44,217 nucleotides of DNA from Candidatus Zhuqueibacterota bacterium (GTDB taxonomy: Bacteria > Zhuqueibacterota > Zhuqueibacteria > Oceanimicrobiales > Oceanimicrobiaceae). The notes below the pieces were generated by a model, which did not search any database, was not told the origin of the DNA, and worked only from the letters and a program-made list of their open reading frames with translations. The first letter of the stretch is position 1; each line of letters opens with the position of its first letter. Below are positions 9,029 through 41,581 of the stretch, one piece after another. The stretch covers positions 1 to 44,217 of the forward strand of contig JAJDAE010000154.1 in NCBI GenBank assembly GCA_029262035.1, written 5' to 3'. The position numbers were made by a program, and so were the translations under genes.

Positions 9029-10309
9029 CTATTTTACTAAAGTTAATCGTCTGGTTGAAACAAAACTTTCCGTTTTTAACTGATAGAAATAAATTCCTCC
9101 CGGTTGTGATTGAGCAAACCATTTAAATTTATGACGCCCGGCATTCAGATTACCTTCAAAAAGCGTGGCTACTTTCTGTCCCAGCAAATTGAAAATAACG
9201 AGTTCTGCGTACTCACTTTTCGGCAGAGAGAACTCAATACTTGTCGCAGGGTTAAACGGATTTGGATAGTTTTGTAACAGCGTGATTTTCACGGGAAAAG
9301 TCTCGTTCACAGCAACAGATACCGGGTTAGACTGAAAAACTGAATCGATGAATGCAAAAGATATTGGCGTTCTGAAAATCAATTGATCTGTATGGCCGCC
9401 GTCAAATGATTCAAATCGGTGGGTAATGCCAAGCCTGGTCAGCGTATCTGAAAAGGCAACATTAAAACCATGCAGCTTGAAATCATCCTGAAGTCCGCAG
9501 TCGAAATAAATCGCCATTTCATTTTCGGGGATGTAAATTGTGCTGGCTAACCGCGCCGGATTTTCCTGCTGCCAGCGTTGGAAAACATCATTAATAATAT
9601 TTCCGGATCTGTCCAGAAAAAAATCTACCTGATAAGGTTGCTTGGCCAAGTTCGGTGAAAAGGCCCCGGCCATGGTAAAACCAAACCTGCTGAAGCCACT
9701 TGCCGGCGTATAATTGTAAGGCGCGGCACCACCGCTTTCAGTCAGGATATTGGGTATCAATATTGGCAATTGATTGAAATCCTGAGGGCCGCTGTGTGCG
9801 GCAACCACCGAAAAAAGATCTGAATGTTTGAGAGCAATTTTCATGGCGCCGTATGCGCCCATAGAATGTCCGGCGATGGCACGTTTTTCTCTGGTAGCAA
9901 GCGTGTGAAAATTTGCATCAACATGGTTGATGACATCTTCAACAATGTAATCTTCAAAATTGCCGTATAACTCTGAATTGGTAAAAAAGCTGCCTTCAAA
10001 CGGACCGACCAGGCCATCCGGTAAAACAATAATAGCGAAATTGAGTATTGTGGTTATTGATGATAAAAGTTCAAGACCTTGAACATATGGCTCAACGCCA
10101 ACACTGCCGCCGTGCAAAAAATAAACGACCGGGTAGCGCGTTGAAGAATCTGCGGCATTATATCCCGGGGGGGTAAAAATTTCAACCCGACGCATTTCAC
10201 CAAGCGCTTCGCTATAAATGGAATCGATCTGTGTTGTTGCTCCTACCGCCAGAGACTGAGATTGAAAAATCGATACGGAAATTATAAACAGTATTTTTTT
10301 AAGCCGCAT
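9029..10309 (-). CDS. Secreted esterase (esterase-D-like) with T9SS-type/FlgD-like C-terminal domain
   Basis: 426 residues. A signal peptide (about 1-24) is followed by an alpha/beta-hydrolase of the putative-esterase family (about 28-325). HGG at 66-68 is the oxyanion region, Ser149 in GHSMGAYGAM is the nucleophile and GGHTDQ carries the likely catalytic His. The last about 83 residues begin LLQNYPNPFNPATSIEFSLP and end STRRLTLVK. This is the type A sorting/FlgD-like Ig domain by which FCB bacteria direct proteins to the type IX secretion system or the surface. The substrate may be an acyl or feruloyl-type ester on a polysaccharide, but this is a guess from relatives. AAAGGATA lies just before ATG 10309, inside the end of the DUF2333 gene (one base between genes), so the two are co-transcribed. 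Confidence 0.88.
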   Translation of the reverse strand: MRLKKILFIISVSIFQSQSLAVGATTQIDSIYSEALGEMRRVEIFTPPGYNAADSSTRYPVVYFLHGGSVGVEPYVQGLELLSSITTILNFAIIVLPDGLVGPFEGSFFTNSELYGNFEDYIVEDVINHVDANFHTLATREKRAIAGHSMGAYGAMKIALKHSDLFSVVAAHSGPQDFNQLPILIPNILTESGGAAPYNYTPASGFSRFGFTMAGAFSPNLAKQPYQVDFFLDRSGNIINDVFQRWQQENPARLASTIYIPENEMAIYFDCGLQDDFKLHGFNVAFSDTLTRLGITHRFESFDGGHTDQLIFRTPISFAFIDSVFQSNPVSVAVNETFPVKITLLQNYPNPFNPATSIEFSLPKSEYAELVIFNLLGQKVATLFEGNLNAGRHKFKWFAQSQPGGIYFYQLKTESFVSTRRLTLVK

Positions 10310-31732: not shown

Positions 31733-34315
31733 TTGTCTACAGGAAACTTTTCCATTCTGTCCAGATATTCTGAGCTTTGGTCGCGACTGTCAGAGCTAAA
31801 AACCAATCCGAAAATTGCATTACTTGATGCAATAGTGTGGTTTGTAACTTTCCTTGCCTACCTTTACCCCCTGGATGCGTTTTCGGCTCTCCGACCTTTT
31901 CTGATTATAGTCAATATCTATTTTCTAATCAGGTTAGCAGTTTTTGTTGACAAAACTATCAGACCACCGACCGAAATATTGCTCACACTCTTTTTTCTAC
32001 TAGCATTCTGCGATACCTTAATTATAAAATCTTGTCTAACCAACACTATTCTGTATCCTGCTTTTTTTCCTAAGATAATCCACCTGTTACTGGTTTCCTT
32101 TTTAGCTTTAATTTTTAGTTTGATCCTGGTAACAAACTCCAAGGGCAAGGGAGGTGTTTTAATTGTCGCATTCCTAATTTGTATACCTGCTTTGGAAGTA
32201 TTAGGAAGCCAACACTTTTTCCTTCTAATTGCGCTTCAGGTAGCCTTGTTTTTATACTTACTGAAAAAAACATCCTGGCTGGAAGAATTAACTAAAGCCG
32301 AACTCTATATTTCACTTCCACTTTTATATTTCGTTTTCACTGGTTTTACGAATTTAAATATTTATGCTTTTCAATCCGAGCCGTTTTCTGAGCTTACCTT
32401 GTGGTATGCCTGGCCAAGACTGCTACACATCGCCTTTAAGATTTATCTGGTGGTACTTTTTCTTAAAATTCCAATTGTTTTAATTTATAATTTTGCCAGC
32501 TTATCGAGAAAGTTAAGAATCTCCGGGATATTTCAATCAACCTTACCGCAATTAATACAGTTAAGCCTTTTACTGCTTATCTTTTATGCATTTCTTGCCG
32601 GGTGGCAGGCCGAAAAAACCCGAAAGGCTATTTGGACTACTTTTGATAAAATAACTTCGGGAGAGGTGAAGTCCGCAGTTTTTAACAGAAGCTTCCGGGC
32701 CTTGCGCTCCAGATCTATTCAAATTCCCGGATACAAGCCCTTTTTTTTACCAGAAGACAGAAGCGACCAAGGAATTATTCAATTGGATATTCTTCCCGGG
32801 TATAAGTCATCCAATTTCTTTTTATTCAGAGAAGCAGAAAACGACGCCGGGGAATCTAAAATCACATATATAAAAATTGATTCTGTTTTCATGCAAATTT
32901 GTTCGGAAAATACTTTTGTACTTGCCGGCACCCATTTGTTGGGTTACCCATATAGTCCCGGAAAAGTGGAGAATTACTTTTATAGACTTATCACCAAAAT
33001 GCCTGTACATATGGGGGAGCGAAATGACAAAAATTTTTACATATTTCCTTTCGGCTTAATACCACACAAACCTGAATGGCAAATACAAGCAGCCCTGAGA
33101 GAATACGAGCAGAATACGCCGGACTTAACGCTGCGGGTTAACAATCAAACAATCTCGAAAAGTTATATCCCGGCAGGCAGATTAATTACACCAATATTCG
33201 ACTCTTCATTCAATAAAAACGGCTTCTTTGCATTTGATGTTTTATTTGTACCAAACCTTGACTTATTTACATCAACTTTATCCAGCTACGTTCTTCTGCT
33301 CATAATTTTGTTCTTTTTGATAAATACTGTGGTAACCAAAAGAATGATTACTTTTGGCGCAGAAATAAACAAAATGATTGTGCAAAAATTTGGTCAATTA
33401 AAGGATGGTATTCGTGAAATTTCCATGGGCAATCTTGACTACAAAGTAAAGGTTGAGGGCAGAGATGAATTTGTTGAACTTGCCGGACATTTCAACCAAA
33501 TGGGAGACAAATTAAAAGAATCTATTGCTGATGTCCGGGAAAAGGAACGGCTCGCTCATGAGCTAACTATCGCAAAAAAAGTTCAACTGGACTTACTGCC
33601 AAAGAAGTTGCCAAATGTACCCGGTTTTCAGGTAGCCGCAATATTGGAAACTGCGAATGAGGTCGGTGGTGATTTTTATGACGTCATTGAGCTGGACAAA
33701 AATCGCTTCCTGTTTACAATTGGTGATGTTTCCGGCAAGGGCACCTCTGCCGCTTTTTATATGGCTCAATGCATCAGCCTGATAAGATACTCTCCACAAT
33801 TCACAGATGAACCCGAAAAAATCGCTGTTAAATTAAATGAATACTTTTCAGGCTCCTTCATAGATAAACAGATATTTGTTACGGCAATCCTTGGAGTTAT
33901 TGACATCAAAAAAGAACTCATAACTTTTGTTCGAGCCGGGCACACAAAGCCTATTTTGGTTAAAGCCGATAAAGAAACTGATGTTTTGGAATTAAGTCAA
34001 AATGGAATCGGGCTGGGAATACAAAAAAATCGAGGCGAATTCACTAAAGCCCTCGAAGTTAGAGCGCAGAAATTTCAAGCCGGAGATTTAATGGTTTTTT
34101 ATACTGACGGAATTGAAGAGGCTGCTGTCGGCAAGCAAGGCGCTGGAGAAGAAGTATCTTACTATTCTATTGAGAGATTAAAAGGTAAGCTAAGTGATTC
34201 ACGAAGCATGACTTCAAAAAAAATTGTTGATGTTATTAAGGCAGATATAAAATCTTTTTATGGTGACGCCAGTCAAGTTGATGACTATACACTTTTAGTT
34301 ATTAAGAAAACTTGA
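31733..34315 (+). CDS. HAMP-linked SpoIIE/RsbU-type PP2C phosphatase with membrane sensor
   Basis: 860 residues from TTG 31733 (AAAGGAAG upstream). About eight helices (roughly 30-290) are followed by an extracytoplasmic domain (about 290-515). Then come a last helix (518-535), a HAMP domain (about 536-590, ending ELAGHFNQMGDKLKESI) and the phosphatase. Signature residues are intact: GGDFYD (645-650), GDVSGKG (664-670, Asp665), AGHTKP, YTDG with Asp792 and VDDYTLLV. Ligand sensing outside would be passed through HAMP to STAS-protein dephosphorylation; this is inferred from family knowledge. The gene is directly downstream of the CPBP-fused phosphatase. Its stop overlaps the convergent OmpA-fusion gene by 21 bases. 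Confidence 0.9.
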   Translation: MSTGNFSILSRYSELWSRLSELKTNPKIALLDAIVWFVTFLAYLYPLDAFSALRPFLIIVNIYFLIRLAVFVDKTIRPPTEILLTLFFLLAFCDTLIIKSCLTNTILYPAFFPKIIHLLLVSFLALIFSLILVTNSKGKGGVLIVAFLICIPALEVLGSQHFFLLIALQVALFLYLLKKTSWLEELTKAELYISLPLLYFVFTGFTNLNIYAFQSEPFSELTLWYAWPRLLHIAFKIYLVVLFLKIPIVLIYNFASLSRKLRISGIFQSTLPQLIQLSLLLLIFYAFLAGWQAEKTRKAIWTTFDKITSGEVKSAVFNRSFRALRSRSIQIPGYKPFFLPEDRSDQGIIQLDILPGYKSSNFFLFREAENDAGESKITYIKIDSVFMQICSENTFVLAGTHLLGYPYSPGKVENYFYRLITKMPVHMGERNDKNFYIFPFGLIPHKPEWQIQAALREYEQNTPDLTLRVNNQTISKSYIPAGRLITPIFDSSFNKNGFFAFDVLFVPNLDLFTSTLSSYVLLLIILFFLINTVVTKRMITFGAEINKMIVQKFGQLKDGIREISMGNLDYKVKVEGRDEFVELAGHFNQMGDKLKESIADVREKERLAHELTIAKKVQLDLLPKKLPNVPGFQVAAILETANEVGGDFYDVIELDKNRFLFTIGDVSGKGTSAAFYMAQCISLIRYSPQFTDEPEKIAVKLNEYFSGSFIDKQIFVTAILGVIDIKKELITFVRAGHTKPILVKADKETDVLELSQNGIGLGIQKNRGEFTKALEVRAQKFQAGDLMVFYTDGIEEAAVGKQGAGEEVSYYSIERLKGKLSDSRSMTSKKIVDVIKADIKSFYGDASQVDDYTLLVIKKT

Positions 34316-36976
34316 CACCTCTTTCGTCGAGCCATCCCATAGCTTAATCTCAACTCTACGGTTTTTTGCACGCGCTTTTTCTGTGTTACCCATTATGGTG
34401 GGTTGCGATTCACCAAAACCCGTTGCAAAAAGTCTATCCGGGACTATGTGATTCCTAATAAAAAAGTCTTTCACAGCATCAGCGCGTTTTTGAGAAAGCG
34501 CCAAATTATATTCCTCCGCACCCTTATCGTCTGTATGACCGATTATCTCGATTTTAGCGAGCCGGTTTTCATTTAAATAGGATACCACTTTTTTTAATGC
34601 ATTTCTTGTTTCGTCTGTTAAGCCAAAACTATCAAAGTCAAAACTAACCCTATCAGGATCAACTGCCGGAAAAGTTTTTTGCTCGGTATCAAACGCCTCC
34701 ACATGCCAATTGTTTTTTTCATTCGATTCGGCAATATAGTTTTCCTTGTCAACAACTGCGAGGATATAAGGTCTTGATTGATCGAATGGTATCTCAATAT
34801 TCAAACTATCTCCAGGAGCCAGTTTATCAACATTCACTATCTTTACACGTTTAGGAGCTATTGTACCATGGTCACTGCCGCTCTCAAAAAAAGCGAACAT
34901 ACCCTGACCTACATTATCTATCATCTGGTCGTCGATGGGACTCTCCAGACTATATACCGCCACTGAAAACATCCCGGCCTCTCTTCGTCCTATATTTATG
35001 AATTTAACAGACGCAATTTCTTCCTTCGAAGTGCGATTATCTTCAACTACATTTAGTTCAACTCTCCGGTTTTGAAAATGTACATCTGCTGAATTCGATA
35101 GTTTAAGCGGACTTGATTCTCCATAACCGTTGGCGGTTATTTGAGAAGTTCTGATTTTTTGAGAAGTCAACCAATTTACAATGCTCTGAGCCCGCAACAA
35201 AGACAATGCCTGATTATACTTTTTCCGATATGGCTCCGGGGGTGGCCCGGTTCTATCTGCATGACCAGCTGCCTCAAAAACGATGTCCGGGTTATCTGAA
35301 ATTATTGATTTCCACGTGGCAAGCAGTGCCCTGTTTTCAGATGACAGGCTTGAGCTGTCCGGTCTAAATCTTATGGGGTCGACCGGAAGTTGTAAGGGCT
35401 CCGGTGCTTTTTTTACAGTTCTTTTTGTTATTTTTATGGTCAGGTCTGGTTTCAGAACATGCTCCATTATAAAAGAACTAATCCTCGTATCCACATCTCC
35501 GATAAACCTGAAATGTTGATTGTTGTCGTATACCATAACCGACCAGAAATATTTGCCCGGAGCCAGACTTCTTTTATATCTAAAGTCTATATTTTTGGTT
35601 TCTTGACTATAAAATGCAAGTCTGTCAGCGGCTATTTTAGTTTCAATCGGCCGGATGGCGTCTGCCGATGTAAATTGGGGTTGCCCTATTACCACTTTTT
35701 GAACGCTCACGGAATCTAACTTTTGAGTCAGAGAAATATCATCAAAAATATCTATTTTCTGTTCTTCAATATCGTTTATTAGTTGCTCCAACACAAGACT
35801 GTCATCAAGGCTCTGAAAAAGAAAATAATTTACTTCATCATATAAGTCCGGATCGTCACTGCTTTTCCAGGATACCTTTGCGGGATTCAATTCAGAAAAC
35901 CGACTCCCATTGAGATCTAATTCGTCAAATTTTTCAGGTTGAATTGAGTAGTGCGCCACACTTCCCCTATAAACCGAAGAAAAGAATTCGCTGTTATCAA
36001 TAATTCCAAGATCCAGTTGCATGGCACTATTTCGGGGTGCTATCTTTTTTAACGGGAAAGCGGTGTAGTCATCAAGTCGGAAGCTTAAACCAAAACTGAC
36101 CTTACTAAATAAATCATTGTCAAAATTATAACCACCTCTTACATCAACCAGTCGTCCAACTCCCTTGTGAATAGGGCTGAAAAGATTTTTAATTTCAGCC
36201 CCGAAACTTAGTCTAAAATCCTCATCGCGAACCTTTAAAAGATCTGCAGCAAGCTGAACTTGCAAACCATCGTGTGTGCCCAAATTAAGAGCAGCGCCGG
36301 AGCGAAATGTGCGTGGCAGGGGAGTCTCGGCATTCAAGAACTTTAACGCCCGACCATTATGTAACAAACCAGCCCCAATCGACCAATACGCATATTTAAA
36401 CATATAACGCGTCAGTCCGGGCGCTTTGATCCGTTTGGACTTGTACAACAATCCAAAATCATAATTAAGTGATGAAGCATTAAATCCGGCTAGTTCACTC
36501 CTAAAATATTTTGTGGTAACTCCCCATGAAATATTTTTTGAAAGAATATTGATCGGGCTACCCAACGTGCCGGATAGTAGAAAATCTTTTGCTGAAGCCG
36601 GAGCTGCTGCGCCACGCGAACTATCAAATTCGCGGACTCCCTGATACTGAACGCCAATTGCAAAATTAAGGCGATCGCTGATGAGGCTATTAAAACGAAA
36701 CTGGCGCCCATATAATAATGAGGCATTAAATATATCTGCTATCCATTCTGTATATCCGGCCGACCATTGCCATTCACGGTAGAAACCAATGCTTCCCGGA
36801 TTCGCAAACAAAATATGTGTGTCGTCCAGCCCCCCAGTTAAACTGTTTGCAAGTCCTTGCTGTCGCGCGCCAGGCAGAACCTTTAGAAATGCCGCACCGG
36901 ATTGAATCTGCGCATTGAGCGCAGTAGTAAAAAGTATCAAGCCAAAGGCAGAAGTTTTCAAACGTGTCTTTATCAT
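34295..36976 (-). CDS. PorV/PorQ-like protein fused to two OmpA domains with a CARDB domain between
   Basis: 893 residues. After a signal peptide (about 1-22), residues 25-305 form a PorV/UPF0164-like barrel region (AAFLKVLPGARQQGLANSLT and FANPGSIGF). The middle (about 310-520) has no recognised domain. OmpA-like domain 1 (533-645) shows FRPDSSSLS, AAGHADRTG and NRRVELNV. A CARDB-type segment (about 650-760) ends VVDKENYIAESNEKNNW. OmpA-like domain 2 (773-882) shows FDFDSFGLT, IIGHTDDKG and KNRRVEIKLW. Peptidoglycan binding by both OmpA domains would make this an unusually strong outer-membrane-to-wall tether. Its start lies six bases after the stop of the giant DUF11 gene, so they are co-transcribed. 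T9SS shuttle-like activity of the PorV part is inference. Confidence 0.85.
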   Translation of the reverse strand: MIKTRLKTSAFGLILFTTALNAQIQSGAAFLKVLPGARQQGLANSLTGGLDDTHILFANPGSIGFYREWQWSAGYTEWIADIFNASLLYGRQFRFNSLISDRLNFAIGVQYQGVREFDSSRGAAAPASAKDFLLSGTLGSPINILSKNISWGVTTKYFRSELAGFNASSLNYDFGLLYKSKRIKAPGLTRYMFKYAYWSIGAGLLHNGRALKFLNAETPLPRTFRSGAALNLGTHDGLQVQLAADLLKVRDEDFRLSFGAEIKNLFSPIHKGVGRLVDVRGGYNFDNDLFSKVSFGLSFRLDDYTAFPLKKIAPRNSAMQLDLGIIDNSEFFSSVYRGSVAHYSIQPEKFDELDLNGSRFSELNPAKVSWKSSDDPDLYDEVNYFLFQSLDDSLVLEQLINDIEEQKIDIFDDISLTQKLDSVSVQKVVIGQPQFTSADAIRPIETKIAADRLAFYSQETKNIDFRYKRSLAPGKYFWSVMVYDNNQHFRFIGDVDTRISSFIMEHVLKPDLTIKITKRTVKKAPEPLQLPVDPIRFRPDSSSLSSENRALLATWKSIISDNPDIVFEAAGHADRTGPPPEPYRKKYNQALSLLRAQSIVNWLTSQKIRTSQITANGYGESSPLKLSNSADVHFQNRRVELNVVEDNRTSKEEIASVKFINIGRREAGMFSVAVYSLESPIDDQMIDNVGQGMFAFFESGSDHGTIAPKRVKIVNVDKLAPGDSLNIEIPFDQSRPYILAVVDKENYIAESNEKNNWHVEAFDTEQKTFPAVDPDRVSFDFDSFGLTDETRNALKKVVSYLNENRLAKIEIIGHTDDKGAEEYNLALSQKRADAVKDFFIRNHIVPDRLFATGFGESQPTIMGNTEKARAKNRRVEIKLWDGSTKEVSSFLNN

Positions 36977-36982
36977 TCTGTA

Positions 36983-39900
36983 TTAATGAACCACTATAAT
37001 TTTTTTATAACAAATCAACCCACCGGACTTAAAAGTAATAAGATAGGTACCACTTCCGACATCCAGGCCCTTTCTATTCTTGCCATCCCATTCAATAGAA
37101 TGCAGTCCCGGGGCAAAAAACTCCTTCCGTAAATTACCGATACGGTATCCGGATACATCATAAATGTCAATTTCGACTTGCCGCCCGGTACTCAATTCAA
37201 ACTCTATCTCGAGTCGTTCTCCACGTTGAGGAATAAGAACGTTTCGATCAAAAACAATACAATCGTTCTGCGGCCTTATTATAATAATTGATTGCGAAAA
37301 GTCGTTCCGGGAATTAATATCGTTTTCTGCAAAAATGCTGGCAAAGCTTGGAATTTCAAAAGGCGTCGTCGGTACAGAGTCCGGGGCCTGCGCAGCATAC
37401 TCAATTTCGAAAAAATCACCCGCCGACAGAGAATCAAACAGCCAAAACAAAGTGTCTTGTTGCGTGTAGTCCGGGCTTAAGCTAAAATCACTTGTTGGTG
37501 TAAGAGGGGATGGCAAATCCCAAAGAACAATCCGCTCAGCAACATCGCGTCCAATATTCTCGACTAGCAAAGAGTAGGCAAATGTACCGCCCTCATCAAC
37601 TGAATCAATACTAGCAGATTTAATAATTTGCAGGTCAGATCGTTTTCGAACAATATAATTTGTGACCGTTGACAAATCGTTTGAACTATTTATATCTCTT
37701 TTTGAAAAAACCATACCCGTGTTTGTAATTAAGCGGGGTAAACCCAGCTTCCCGGAATCAGCCCTTGCCTGAATGTCAAGTGTGAGCGTTTCGTTTGGGG
37801 CAACCCACATAATATCCCAAAACACGGAATCCGGAGTTATTCTTTGCGGTTGTGGTTCAAACTCAAGAAGTGCGGCAAGGTCTGGTACGACATCTTTTAC
37901 CTGAACCGACGATGCAGTATCTGGTCCTGCATTTAAAATTGACAGTGTATAACCAAAACCCTGGCCAGGAAAAACAGAATCCGCACTAGCTGTCTTTGTA
38001 ATTTGAATATCATAGCGCCGGGGTACAACCTTAACCAGGGCTGTGTCTTCATTATTATTTGGATTGGTATCATTTCCTGACTCCACGACAGCAACATTAG
38101 TCAAGACTGTCGGTACCGTAATTTTGCTCGTGTCGGCTTTTGCCCCGACTGTAAAAGTTTGGCGCTCCATTGCAGCAAGAGAGTCTATATGCCAAAAAAT
38201 ACTGTCGCCAACAATTTTTACCGGTGGGGGTTCATAAGAAAATGCAATGATGTTGTCGGACTTGATATCCATTACAGTTATATTGCTCGCCGTATCAGGG
38301 CCGACATTTTCTACTGTTATCCGGTAACTATAACTATGCTCTTTGAAAATTGAATCTTGACTCGAGGTTTTTTTCACAGATAAGTCATAGCGCCGGGGTA
38401 CAACCTTAACGAGGGCTGTGTCTTTATTATTATTTGGATTGGTATCATTTTTTGACTCCACAATAGCAACATTTGTCAAGACTGTCGGTACCGAAATTTT
38501 GCTCGTATCGGCTTTTGCTCCGACTGTAAAAATTTGGCGCTCCATTGCAGCAAGAGAATCTATATGCCAAAAAATACTATCGCCAACAATTTTTACCGGG
38601 GGGGGCTCATAAGAAAATGCAATGATGTTGTCGGGCTTGATATCCTTTACAATTATATGGCTCGCCGTATCCGGACCGGCATTTTCTACTGTTATCCGGT
38701 AATTATAACTATGCTCTTTAAAAATTGAATCTTGACTCGAGTTTTTTTTCACAGATAAGTCATAGCGCCGGGGTACAACCTTAACCAGGGCTGTGTCTTT
38801 ATTATTATTTGGGTTGGTATCATTTTTTGACTCCACAATAGCAACATTTGTCAAGACTGTCGGTACCGAAATTTTGCTCGTGTCGGCTTTTGCTCCGACT
38901 GTAAAAATTTGGCGCTCCATTGCAGCAAGAGAATCTATACGCCAAAAAATACTATCGCCAACAATTTTTACCGGGGGGGGCTCATAAGAAAAGGCGATGA
39001 TGTTGTCGGACTTGATATCCATTACAGTTATATTGCTCGCCGTATCCGGGCCGACACTTTCTACTGTTATCCGGTAACTATAACTATGCTCTTTAAAAAT
39101 AGAATCACGGCTGGCGGTTTTTACCAGGGACAGGTCGTAACGTCGGGGAACAACCTTAACAATTGCAGTATCTTCATTATTTAGGGGATTACTATCATTT
39201 TCCGATTCAATAATGGCAACGTTTGTTAGCTCGGCCGGCACAACGATTTTGTTTGTATCCGCCCTGGCACCAACGGTAAAAGTGCGCCGCTCGCCAATTG
39301 CAAGAGAATCTATATGCCAGAAACTACTGTCGCCCACTGTTTTCACCGGTGCAGGGTCATACGAAAATGCGATAATGTTATCCGGCTTTATGTCAGTCAA
39401 AGTTATATCTAAAGCAGTGTCCGGACCCAGGTTTTCCACCATCAACTCGTAACTATAACTATGCTCTTTGAAAATTGAATCTTGACTCGAGGTTTTTTTC
39501 ACAGACAAGTCATAGCGCCGGGGTACAACCTTAACTATGGCTGTGTCTTCATTATTACCGGGATTGGTATCATTTTCTGACTCCACGATGGCAACATTTG
39601 TCAAGACTGTCGGTACCGTAATTTTGCTCGTATCGACTTTTGCCCCGACTGTAAAAGTTTGGCGCTCCATTGCAGCAAGAGAATCTATACGCCAAAAAAT
39701 ACTATCGCCAACAATTTTTACCGGGGGGGGTTCATAAGAAAATGCAATGATGTTGTCGGGCTTGACATCCTTTACAATTATATGGCTCGCCGTATCCGGA
39801 CCGGCATTTTCTACTGTTATCCGGTAGCTATAACTTTGTTCCTTGAAAATTGAATCACGGTTGGTAGTTTTTTCCAAGGACAGGTCATAACGCCGGGGAA

Positions 39901-41581
39901 TGATATTTACAACTGCGCTATCTTGATTATTCGTAATATCCGGATCTACCTCACCCTCAACCTCTACTCGGTTTAAAAGTGTTAGCGGAGCGCCTATCTT
40001 GCTTGTATCGACTTTTGCACCAATGGTAAATTCTCTGGTTTCGTTAACTGCCAGCGTATCAATCTGCCAAAGAACAGTATCGCTCAGAATACTTGCGGCT
40101 TCAGGGGTTACAGACTGCACTATCAAGTTGGCTGGCATAAAATCTCTTAACACAATATTCGTAGCCGTATCTGGCCCGGTGTTTTGTACTGTTATTGAAT
40201 AGTTAAAACTTCTTTCCTTATATATAGAGTCCTGATCAGCGCTTTTTGTAACTGATAAGTCCGCCCGACGCGGTACGACCTTTACCGTTGCCGTTGCTTC
40301 ATCATTAACAGAGTTAATATCATTTTCAGATTCAATAATGACTTTATTTAAAACCTCTGCGGGTACGGTAAAGCCTGTAGCATTTACCCTTGCAAATACT
40401 TTAATTTTTACGGAATCGCCTACAGCAAGAGTATCTACTTGCCAATAAATGGAATCTGGCGTTATCCGTTGAGGTTGAAAGTCGGAATCCAGAAAAGACA
40501 GGTTTTGGTCTGCCAGGTCGACTATACTTATATTTACGGCTGTATCGGGGCCAGAATTTTTTAGTTGAATCTCAAACGTTACATCCTGTCCCCTGAAAAG
40601 AGAATCAGTTATTGTAGTATTTTTAACTTCCAAGTCGTAGAATATAGGAGGCAGAATGACAACGACTGAACTATCGAGGCCATTTATAGGGTTCATATCG
40701 CAACTGCCTGTAACCCACGCCTTGTTTACCAAGTCAAAAGGACGAATCGGCGGAGAGTCATCAACGCGTACATCAACGTCAACAATAATAGAATCACCCG
40801 AAGCCAAAGAGTCAAATACCCAAAATAAAGTATCGGAATCAAATGAAGCTGGCGGCAAAGAGTATGATATAGGAGTTACATAAGGCGGTAAAGCATTTTT
40901 CAAATTAACAAAATAAACACCAGATTTTTCAACATTTTTTACCGCAAGTCGATACTGATATTCTTCTCCCGGGTTCACCCTGGAGATATTTGCTGACTCC
41001 CTAACTTCTACATCGAAAACTTCGTCAACAAAGTCCACAACAATTGCTTTCATGTGAACACTCTGTGCGCCATCTATGGAATCAGGGCCATTAATAAAAC
41101 GTGGAAACTCATATGCTATTTTTGCATAATGTGTAACTGTTACAATGTTATCTCCCTGCGCCAAGTAAAAGGTTCCGGCATTTCTTACTGTTGTATCCGC
41201 AACATCTGTTTTATCCACAACGACATTAAACGGTCCCAAATTGGGATTACAGGGATTTTTGCAACTTGATGTTTGTTTATCGCAAACCTGGAAATAGTAG
41301 GACTCATTGTCCTGAGAATTGCTGTAGGAAACAACCGAGTTAATCCGGTAAAAGCCACTTTGCTGAACATTAATGCAGCCAATTACTTTAGTCTGGTTCT
41401 CCGGGATATCGGCACGAACAATAACATCTGTTTCAAACTTGAAAGTATCACTTAAAGATACAACATTGTAGATAATATCACATGTTTCCTGCGCTAACGC
41501 AGTCTTGACAAGGAGACAATTAATTACAAAAAAGAGTGTTAACAAGATTTTGCAACTAAACCGGAAACCCGATCTTTTCAT
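36983..41581 (-). CDS. Giant secreted DUF11-repeat protein with FlgD-like C-terminal domain
   Basis: 1532 residues. A signal peptide (about 1-30) precedes an N-terminal unique domain with a Cys-rich patch (CDKQTSSCKNPCNPN). Ten DUF11-like Ig repeats of about 125 residues follow (from about 190 to 1440), each ending near ND.NS.ND...V.V.PRR and carrying VENxGPDTA. Repeats 4-8 are nearly identical. The last about 95 residues (EIEFELSTGRQVEIDIYDVS to KKIIVVH) are a FlgD-like/T9SS-type sorting domain. The protein is probably exported to the surface as a long stalk or adhesin. It is co-transcribed with the PorV/OmpA fusion gene downstream, a likely anchor or secretion partner. No ribosome site is visible before ATG 41581. 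Confidence 0.88.
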   Translation of the reverse strand: MKRSGFRFSCKILLTLFFVINCLLVKTALAQETCDIIYNVVSLSDTFKFETDVIVRADIPENQTKVIGCINVQQSGFYRINSVVSYSNSQDNESYYFQVCDKQTSSCKNPCNPNLGPFNVVVDKTDVADTTVRNAGTFYLAQGDNIVTVTHYAKIAYEFPRFINGPDSIDGAQSVHMKAIVVDFVDEVFDVEVRESANISRVNPGEEYQYRLAVKNVEKSGVYFVNLKNALPPYVTPISYSLPPASFDSDTLFWVFDSLASGDSIIVDVDVRVDDSPPIRPFDLVNKAWVTGSCDMNPINGLDSSVVVILPPIFYDLEVKNTTITDSLFRGQDVTFEIQLKNSGPDTAVNISIVDLADQNLSFLDSDFQPQRITPDSIYWQVDTLAVGDSVKIKVFARVNATGFTVPAEVLNKVIIESENDINSVNDEATATVKVVPRRADLSVTKSADQDSIYKERSFNYSITVQNTGPDTATNIVLRDFMPANLIVQSVTPEAASILSDTVLWQIDTLAVNETREFTIGAKVDTSKIGAPLTLLNRVEVEGEVDPDITNNQDSAVVNIIPRRYDLSLEKTTNRDSIFKEQSYSYRITVENAGPDTASHIIVKDVKPDNIIAFSYEPPPVKIVGDSIFWRIDSLAAMERQTFTVGAKVDTSKITVPTVLTNVAIVESENDTNPGNNEDTAIVKVVPRRYDLSVKKTSSQDSIFKEHSYSYELMVENLGPDTALDITLTDIKPDNIIAFSYDPAPVKTVGDSSFWHIDSLAIGERRTFTVGARADTNKIVVPAELTNVAIIESENDSNPLNNEDTAIVKVVPRRYDLSLVKTASRDSIFKEHSYSYRITVESVGPDTASNITVMDIKSDNIIAFSYEPPPVKIVGDSIFWRIDSLAAMERQIFTVGAKADTSKISVPTVLTNVAIVESKNDTNPNNNKDTALVKVVPRRYDLSVKKNSSQDSIFKEHSYNYRITVENAGPDTASHIIVKDIKPDNIIAFSYEPPPVKIVGDSIFWHIDSLAAMERQIFTVGAKADTSKISVPTVLTNVAIVESKNDTNPNNNKDTALVKVVPRRYDLSVKKTSSQDSIFKEHSYSYRITVENVGPDTASNITVMDIKSDNIIAFSYEPPPVKIVGDSIFWHIDSLAAMERQTFTVGAKADTSKITVPTVLTNVAVVESGNDTNPNNNEDTALVKVVPRRYDIQITKTASADSVFPGQGFGYTLSILNAGPDTASSVQVKDVVPDLAALLEFEPQPQRITPDSVFWDIMWVAPNETLTLDIQARADSGKLGLPRLITNTGMVFSKRDINSSNDLSTVTNYIVRKRSDLQIIKSASIDSVDEGGTFAYSLLVENIGRDVAERIVLWDLPSPLTPTSDFSLSPDYTQQDTLFWLFDSLSAGDFFEIEYAAQAPDSVPTTPFEIPSFASIFAENDINSRNDFSQSIIIIRPQNDCIVFDRNVLIPQRGERLEIEFELSTGRQVEIDIYDVSGYRIGNLRKEFFAPGLHSIEWDGKNRKGLDVGSGTYLITFKSGGLICYKKIIVVH
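38011..39885 (-). repeat. Five tandem 375-bp coding repeats (DUF11 units 4-8)
   Basis: Unit borders recur at 38011, 38386, 38761, 39136 and 39511, exactly 375 bases (125 codons) apart; diverged units continue on both sides. Units 6, 7 and 8 agree over most of their length. Unit 7 shares its GPDTASHIIVKD part with unit 4, whereas units 6 and 8 share SNITVMDIKSDN, a mosaic pattern. Three units contain runs of eight G on the plus strand. Confidence 0.95.

Follow-up and report, generated by a model that had tools for sequence, protein, structure and literature searches.

What do two adjacent genes accomplish together, if one encodes a giant repetitive surface protein and the other an outer-membrane barrel with a tail of OmpA domains? 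Such genes lie in the window, i.e., the whole analyzed stretch of 44,217 nucleotides, which is contig C62 of a genome of 5.3 Mb (96% complete) from KSB1, the phylum of the FCB group named Ca. Zhuqueibacterota. Type IX secretion is described in the literature as a Bacteroidota or FCB trait, and no treatment of it in KSB1 was found in the literature searched. An initial annotation of the window had suggested a dedicated secretion-and-anchoring pair and had regarded the combination as undescribed; the literature searched likewise contained no description of it. The best explanation, to which a probability of about 0.7 is assigned, is that the two genes encode one dedicated type IX substrate together with a carrier which is fused to its own peptidoglycan anchor.

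Organization of the Locus

Both open reading frames are located on the minus strand; six bases (36977-36982) separate the stop codon of the giant from the ATG of its partner. The upstream gene (36983..41581) encodes a DUF11 surface protein of 1532 aa, the proposed type IX substrate. Its signal peptide (41492..41581) was recognized by eye from a hydrophobic core followed by TALA-QETC, and a lipobox cysteine is absent from the expected site. The following N-terminal domain (41009..41491) could be assigned to no family and obtained no NCBIfam match; with a single-sequence profile, a homologous stretch was found in a minority of the relatives. The largest part of the protein is an array of ten DUF11 stretches (37292..41014; Pfam, E 4e-156), which at the DNA level includes a tandem array of five copies of a 375-bp unit (38010-39898). 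The C-terminal domain (CTD) occupies 36986..37261. Two other contigs of the same genome (G000:C15:1-1287 and G000:C340:1-2418) each start inside a DUF11 giant, one with a C-terminal and one with an N-terminal part; these may be the halves of the giant of a second pair, the assembly having been broken at the repeats.

The downstream gene (34295..36976) encodes the proposed carrier and anchor, a protein of 893 aa which starts with a signal peptide. A PorV-family outer-membrane barrel together with the next conserved segment (residues 25-395; 35792..36904) is followed by a first OmpA domain (residues 539-643; 35048..35362), a CARDB domain (residues 657-758; 34703..35008; Pfam, 29.2 bits at a cut-off of 22.7) and a second OmpA domain (residues 779-873; 34358..34642), all on the minus strand. 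The 3' end of this gene shares 21 bases (34295-34315) with the end of a convergent plus-strand gene (31733-34315), which has the appearance of a PP2C/SpoIIE-like phosphatase. Scans for promoters, terminators and RNA families gave nothing above chance. Thus, the spacing of the genes, the ten repeats of the giant and the order of a PorV-like barrel and two OmpA domains with CARDB between them, all named in the initial annotation, were borne out, the last by Pfam, by NF033709 and by the predicted fold.

A PorV-Family Barrel Fused to Predicted Peptidoglycan-Binding Domains

The relation of the N-terminal domain to PorV, on which the proposed pair depended, was found by profile, by sequence and by fold. 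Against NF033709, the PorV/PorQ family with a cut-off of 90 bits, the window protein scored 89.7 bits as a protein and 91.5 bits in the genome scan, and four relatives (L040, L052, L185, and L190) reached 106-112 bits. A sequence search of the PDB with the barrel retrieved 6h3i (E 6e-11). The single-chain model of the whole protein combines a PorV-like barrel, with strands predicted up to about residue 344, and Pal-like OmpA domains in one chain, the CARDB domain and the linkers being of low confidence. In a Foldseek search with this model, the best match was PorV of Flavobacterium johnsoniae (8gl6_F, 6h3i_F; TM-score by target 0.62-0.68); after it came Pal/OmpA domains and the C-terminal domain of PorE. 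The protein is neither PorV proper nor PorE by the respective profiles. For the PorV equivalog NF033710, which asks for more than 250 bits, the relatives L052 and L190 scored 35.2 and 32.6 bits, and this family was not among the best 25 listed for the window protein. For PorE (NF052230, more than 600 bits over the full length) 119.5 bits were obtained, with the best stretch in the OmpA part. The TraA-TraB outer membrane exchange pair found no support either (TraB 86.7 bits at a full-length cut-off of 700), the best stretch again being in the OmpA part.

Peptidoglycan binding by the tail is predicted from an Asp and an Arg, the ligand residues in OmpA of A. baumannii. Both are present in both domains of the window protein (Asp574 and Arg595; Asp816 and Arg831), and 48 of 49 aligned sequences retain those of the first domain. 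Envelope and surface-layer proteins often contain DUF11 repeats. Together with the intact ligand residues of the two OmpA domains, this would suit a general tether between outer membrane and peptidoglycan, in which the pairing reflects a shared role in envelope integrity, the giant forms an S-layer-like coat and the secretion route is unrelated. Such a tether leaves unexplained why the barrel is of the PorV type and why the CTD of the giant is conserved next to a freely varying N-terminus and repeat array, and it is considered quite improbable.

A Private Type of C-Terminal Domain

The FlgD-like or type IX-like character first noticed at the end of the giant was recovered just below both curated cut-offs, with 24.8 bits for FlgD_ig (cut-off 27) and 21.9 bits for TIGR04183 Por_Secre_tail (cut-off 23). 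By score, the domain therefore falls short of type A membership, which is set at more than 23 bits in TIGR04183. By fold, it agrees with type A, as it is predicted with high confidence (pLDDT 91.6) to form a seven-stranded Ig-like sandwich and has a Lys close to the C-terminus, which is nearly invariant among the paired CTDs (K95 of the alignment). A search with the predicted fold retrieved the CTDs of PorZ and PorU as well as FlgD; since FlgD and domains of C5a peptidase score like type IX CTDs, the fold alone is no proof of a type IX signal. Another protein in the window (9029-10309, minus strand) carries an ordinary type A CTD, with 40 bits to TIGR04183.

The CTDs found in pairs share LDRNVF.P ... 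GSGVYLI ... KK.IIVR, and the proteins end there. Ordinary type A CTDs, of which the host genome contains at least 150, share NYPNPFNP, a signature which is absent from the paired CTDs; the latter number a few per genome. Profiles of the two kinds separated all 69 paired CTDs from all 56 sampled type A CTDs of the host genome, the profiles having been built from the same 69 and 56 sequences. For this reason, the separation was repeated with the family of the window held out. The 12 paired CTDs held out then scored at least 38 bits better with the paired profile, and the 28 type A CTDs held out at least 41 bits worse with it. Near 72-80 bits, the two kinds of CTD come close in score, and each borderline case was decided on its scores against both profiles; three apparent additional paired CTDs (L201-L203) scored higher as type A and were left out. 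Across the phylum, about 67 of 82 genomes contain one or more CTDs that reach the paired level, counted by best E-values below 1e-21. In the CTDs of the window and of L042, L043, L046, L050, and L078, two cysteines occur, one before LD.NV and one in CWKK, which are missing together in other CTDs; this covariation suggests an internal disulfide in one branch.

The alternative signal of type IX secretion, type B, does not apply to the window pair, because both profiles which define it were tried and neither matched. TIGR04131, the type B CTD, gave no NCBIfam match for the giant and none at the window locus in the genome scan. PorP_SprF (PF11751) gave no match for the 893-aa protein, and a weak one of 15.8 bits in the relative L085.

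Conservation and Co-Inheritance of the Pair

The 893-aa protein was matched in all 60 genomes searched, in some of them by the OmpA part only. For the analysis of gene neighborhoods, almost every listed place at which the barrel was substantially matched was taken, blind to its neighbors. In 69 of 71 barrels of the host class, the window included, an open reading frame with a homologous CTD lies directly upstream on the same strand, and most of these frames contain DUF11 repeats. One of the two remaining barrels is cut by a contig end and the other (L085 in genome G037) is a true orphan. On another contig of that genome lies an orphan giant whose CTD is of the paired type (L184), so that the pair may have been split there. 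Among regions chosen by the CTD from other classes of the phylum and from one additional family, 15 pairs and two orphan giants were found. The conserved pairing which the initial annotation had put forward for checking was thereby confirmed. A shorter PorV-OmpA family from the same genomes served as control, and in none of its five members was a paired-type CTD present upstream. These control proteins (L111-L115) measure about 640 aa, and the single member scanned has an AMIN domain; at four of the five loci, the neighbor is a different protein of 970-1020 aa, and both of the neighbors scanned contain NHL repeats. When named genomes were scanned with a profile of 16 barrels, 32 loci were obtained, partly overlapping the relatives already searched and labeled mostly candidate division KSB1, others being labeled Calditrichaeota, Caldithrix sp. 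or only bacterium.

The part of the giant that is conserved is the CTD, whereas the number of repeats and the N-terminus vary freely. The same type of CTD precedes nearly every homologous barrel in the phylum; the pairing is not due to chance, and it is real and old. Moreover, barrel and CTD are not exchanged between pairs. This was examined by a partner-swap test in 16 genomes with more than one pair, in which partners were shuffled 2000 times within genomes. The distance matrices of barrels and CTDs correlated at 0.772, a value which was reached by none of the 2000 shuffles (mean 0.400, sd 0.099); linked genes are co-inherited in any case, so that this correlation by itself is no proof of contact.

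Type IX Components in the Same Genomes

SprA_N was detected in 59 of 60 genomes, including the host (89.7 bits), and PorU exceeded its cut-off in 14 of 16 genomes, with 871 bits in the host. The search for GldM (TIGR03517) gave no match in 16 relatives and likewise none in controls, and is therefore uninformative. For GldK (TIGR03525), matches remained below the threshold and probably represent general sulfatase-like domains. That neither GldM nor GldK was recognized above cut-off is no sign of their absence, but it leaves the demonstration of a working type IX system incomplete. With SprA and PorU clear, this phylum may have a divergent or a different motor.

The host genome contains 12 PorV-family matches over cut-off, i.e., the window protein and 11 stand-alone barrels, several of which adjoin type A CTD genes. 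Because of these stand-alone barrels, the fused barrel was not regarded as the general carrier. Next to PorU, where true PorV was looked for in seven genomes, there was no barrel fitting the profile of the fused-barrel family. The presence of PorU and of so many stand-alone barrels could also be read in another way, in that the giant is an ordinary type A substrate of a stand-alone PorV and the fused protein merely a surface tether acting after secretion; the paired CTD, with its type A fold and its nearly invariant Lys at the C-terminus, fits this as well. Nevertheless, such a division of tasks is unlikely, given that the paired CTD has lost NYPNPFNP and forms a class of its own which tracks the fused barrel. 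Moreover, the fused barrel itself has the carrier fold of the PorV family, so that a separate carrier is not needed.

A different kind of pair is found elsewhere in the host genome (G000:C129, locus L142), where a type B CTD gene is followed within a few bases by a gene for a PorP-family barrel. Both assignments are below cut-off (28.6 and 46.9 bits, respectively), and no clear OmpA domain is present. In L142:2003-8385, the type B CTD protein, the PorP-family barrel with its long extension and a MotA/ExbB-like gene stand in a row on one strand; this row is a candidate for an unrecognized type IX motor or accessory. The window pair coexists in the host genome with the general type A route and with a type B pair.

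A Cysteine in the Second OmpA Domain

At the position of the ligand Asp of the second OmpA domain (window residue 816), 39 of 49 aligned sequences have a Cys within GHACAIGP. In a search of the alignment columns, no second cysteine proved to be shared by most of the barrel family, and in five class members this Cys is the only one from the barrel onwards. It is also present in most of the members from other classes examined (among L190-L200), while L185, L187, and L188 show GHTD in both OmpA domains. The window protein has kept the Asp and contains no cysteine at all. Reactive cysteines of carriers have a precedent in SprF and PorG, both of which are joined to GldK by disulfides (PMC12635249). 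By analogy, the phylum might possess a third class of type IX signal with a fused carrier-anchor, in which most carriers would be locked to a periplasmic partner by a disulfide, the Cys replacing wall binding, and the window protein would represent a branch with two wall-binding domains; this extension is rather doubtful.

The conserved periplasmic Cys in most relatives, together with the attachment of the SprF Cys to GldK (PMC12635249) and the combination of a giant repetitive protein with a cognate carrier, also brings to mind a mobile gliding adhesin like SprB-SprF, moved along a periplasmic track. Of all readings weighed, this is the least probable. GldK and GldM were not recognized above cut-off, and the window protein lacks any Cys and has both of its peptidoglycan-binding OmpA domains intact, which speaks for a static anchor.

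Comparison with Known Systems

Several features of the pair have counterparts in Bacteroidota. Type B substrates need cognate barrels encoded directly downstream (Flavobacterium johnsoniae; PMC12618676, PMC9143113), and SprB-SprF resembles the window pair in that a giant repetitive surface protein is followed directly by its barrel, in cognate pairs. Unlike here, where a type A-like signal meets an OmpA-fused PorV-family barrel, SprB-SprF comprises a type B signal and a PorP/SprF barrel. For F. johnsoniae, it has been proposed that the pairs whose neighboring gene encodes a PorE homologue are the static ones (PMC12618676), and static type B substrates are proposed to be tied to the wall by the separate PorE (PMC12618676, PMC9143113). 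Accordingly, PG1035-PorP-PorE of Porphyromonas gingivalis and five operons of F. johnsoniae with PorE homologues are alike in joining a substrate, a carrier barrel and a peptidoglycan-binding OmpA domain as the proposed static anchor (PMC9143113, PMC12618676). There, three separate proteins are involved, whereas carrier and anchor form one polypeptide in the window, and the window protein has neither the TPR nor the propeller domain of PorE.

With the PorV or type A pathway (8gl6, 6h3i; PMC10994853), the pair shares the barrel family, the CTD fold and the near-invariant Lys by the end of the CTD, a Lys near the C-terminus being described for type A CTDs (PMC10994853). PorV is a general carrier with many substrates, which are released or linked to LPS; here, by contrast, one substrate with a private CTD stands beside a barrel with a putative periplasmic anchor. 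The pair at L142 in the same genome has the same layout, in that the barrel gene starts within a few bases of the substrate gene and is extended by a long C-terminal part, but differs in its type B CTD and in its PorP-family barrel, to which no clear OmpA domain is attached. The private CTD subtype, the analogy to SprB-SprF and PG1035-PorP-PorE, the coexisting type B/PorP pair and the cysteine of the second OmpA domain in most relatives go beyond what the initial annotation contained.

Proposed Mechanism and Meaning

The reading of the two genes as a dedicated substrate and its anchored carrier can be put in the following steps. The signal peptide would direct the giant across the inner membrane; the outer membrane would then be crossed via the SprA translocon with the help of the private-subtype CTD. 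The PorV-type barrel of the partner would then take the CTD from SprA in place of the general PorV, and the OmpA domains on the periplasmic tail of the barrel would bind peptidoglycan. Because this tail with its peptidoglycan-binding OmpA domains belongs to the barrel itself, the carrier is proposed to be the anchor, too. The giant would be kept on the cell surface as an adhesin or a surface-layer component, involving neither release nor an LPS-linking sortase. The dedicated secretion-and-anchoring pair of the initial annotation is supported by the conserved pairing, by the co-inheritance and by the PorV-family barrel; as functional steps, we infer secretion by SprA, direct binding between CTD and barrel, peptidoglycan binding, surface retention and the adhesin role.

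What these results support as the best explanation is a cognate type IX substrate-carrier pair in which a PorV-type carrier is fused to a wall anchor and the substrate bears a private, type A-like signal. In Bacteroidota, pull-downs, crosslinks and operon order underlie the idea that carrier and PorE tie static type IX surface proteins to the wall (PMC9143113, PMC12618676). A carrier-type barrel naturally fused to peptidoglycan-binding domains beside its substrate throughout a phylum gives independent genomic support for carrier and anchor as one unit. Furthermore, the pair indicates that substrates with cognate carriers also exist outside the realm of type B signals and PorP barrels. In the paired CTDs, nature offers a set of private signals with which the choice of substrates by carriers can be studied.
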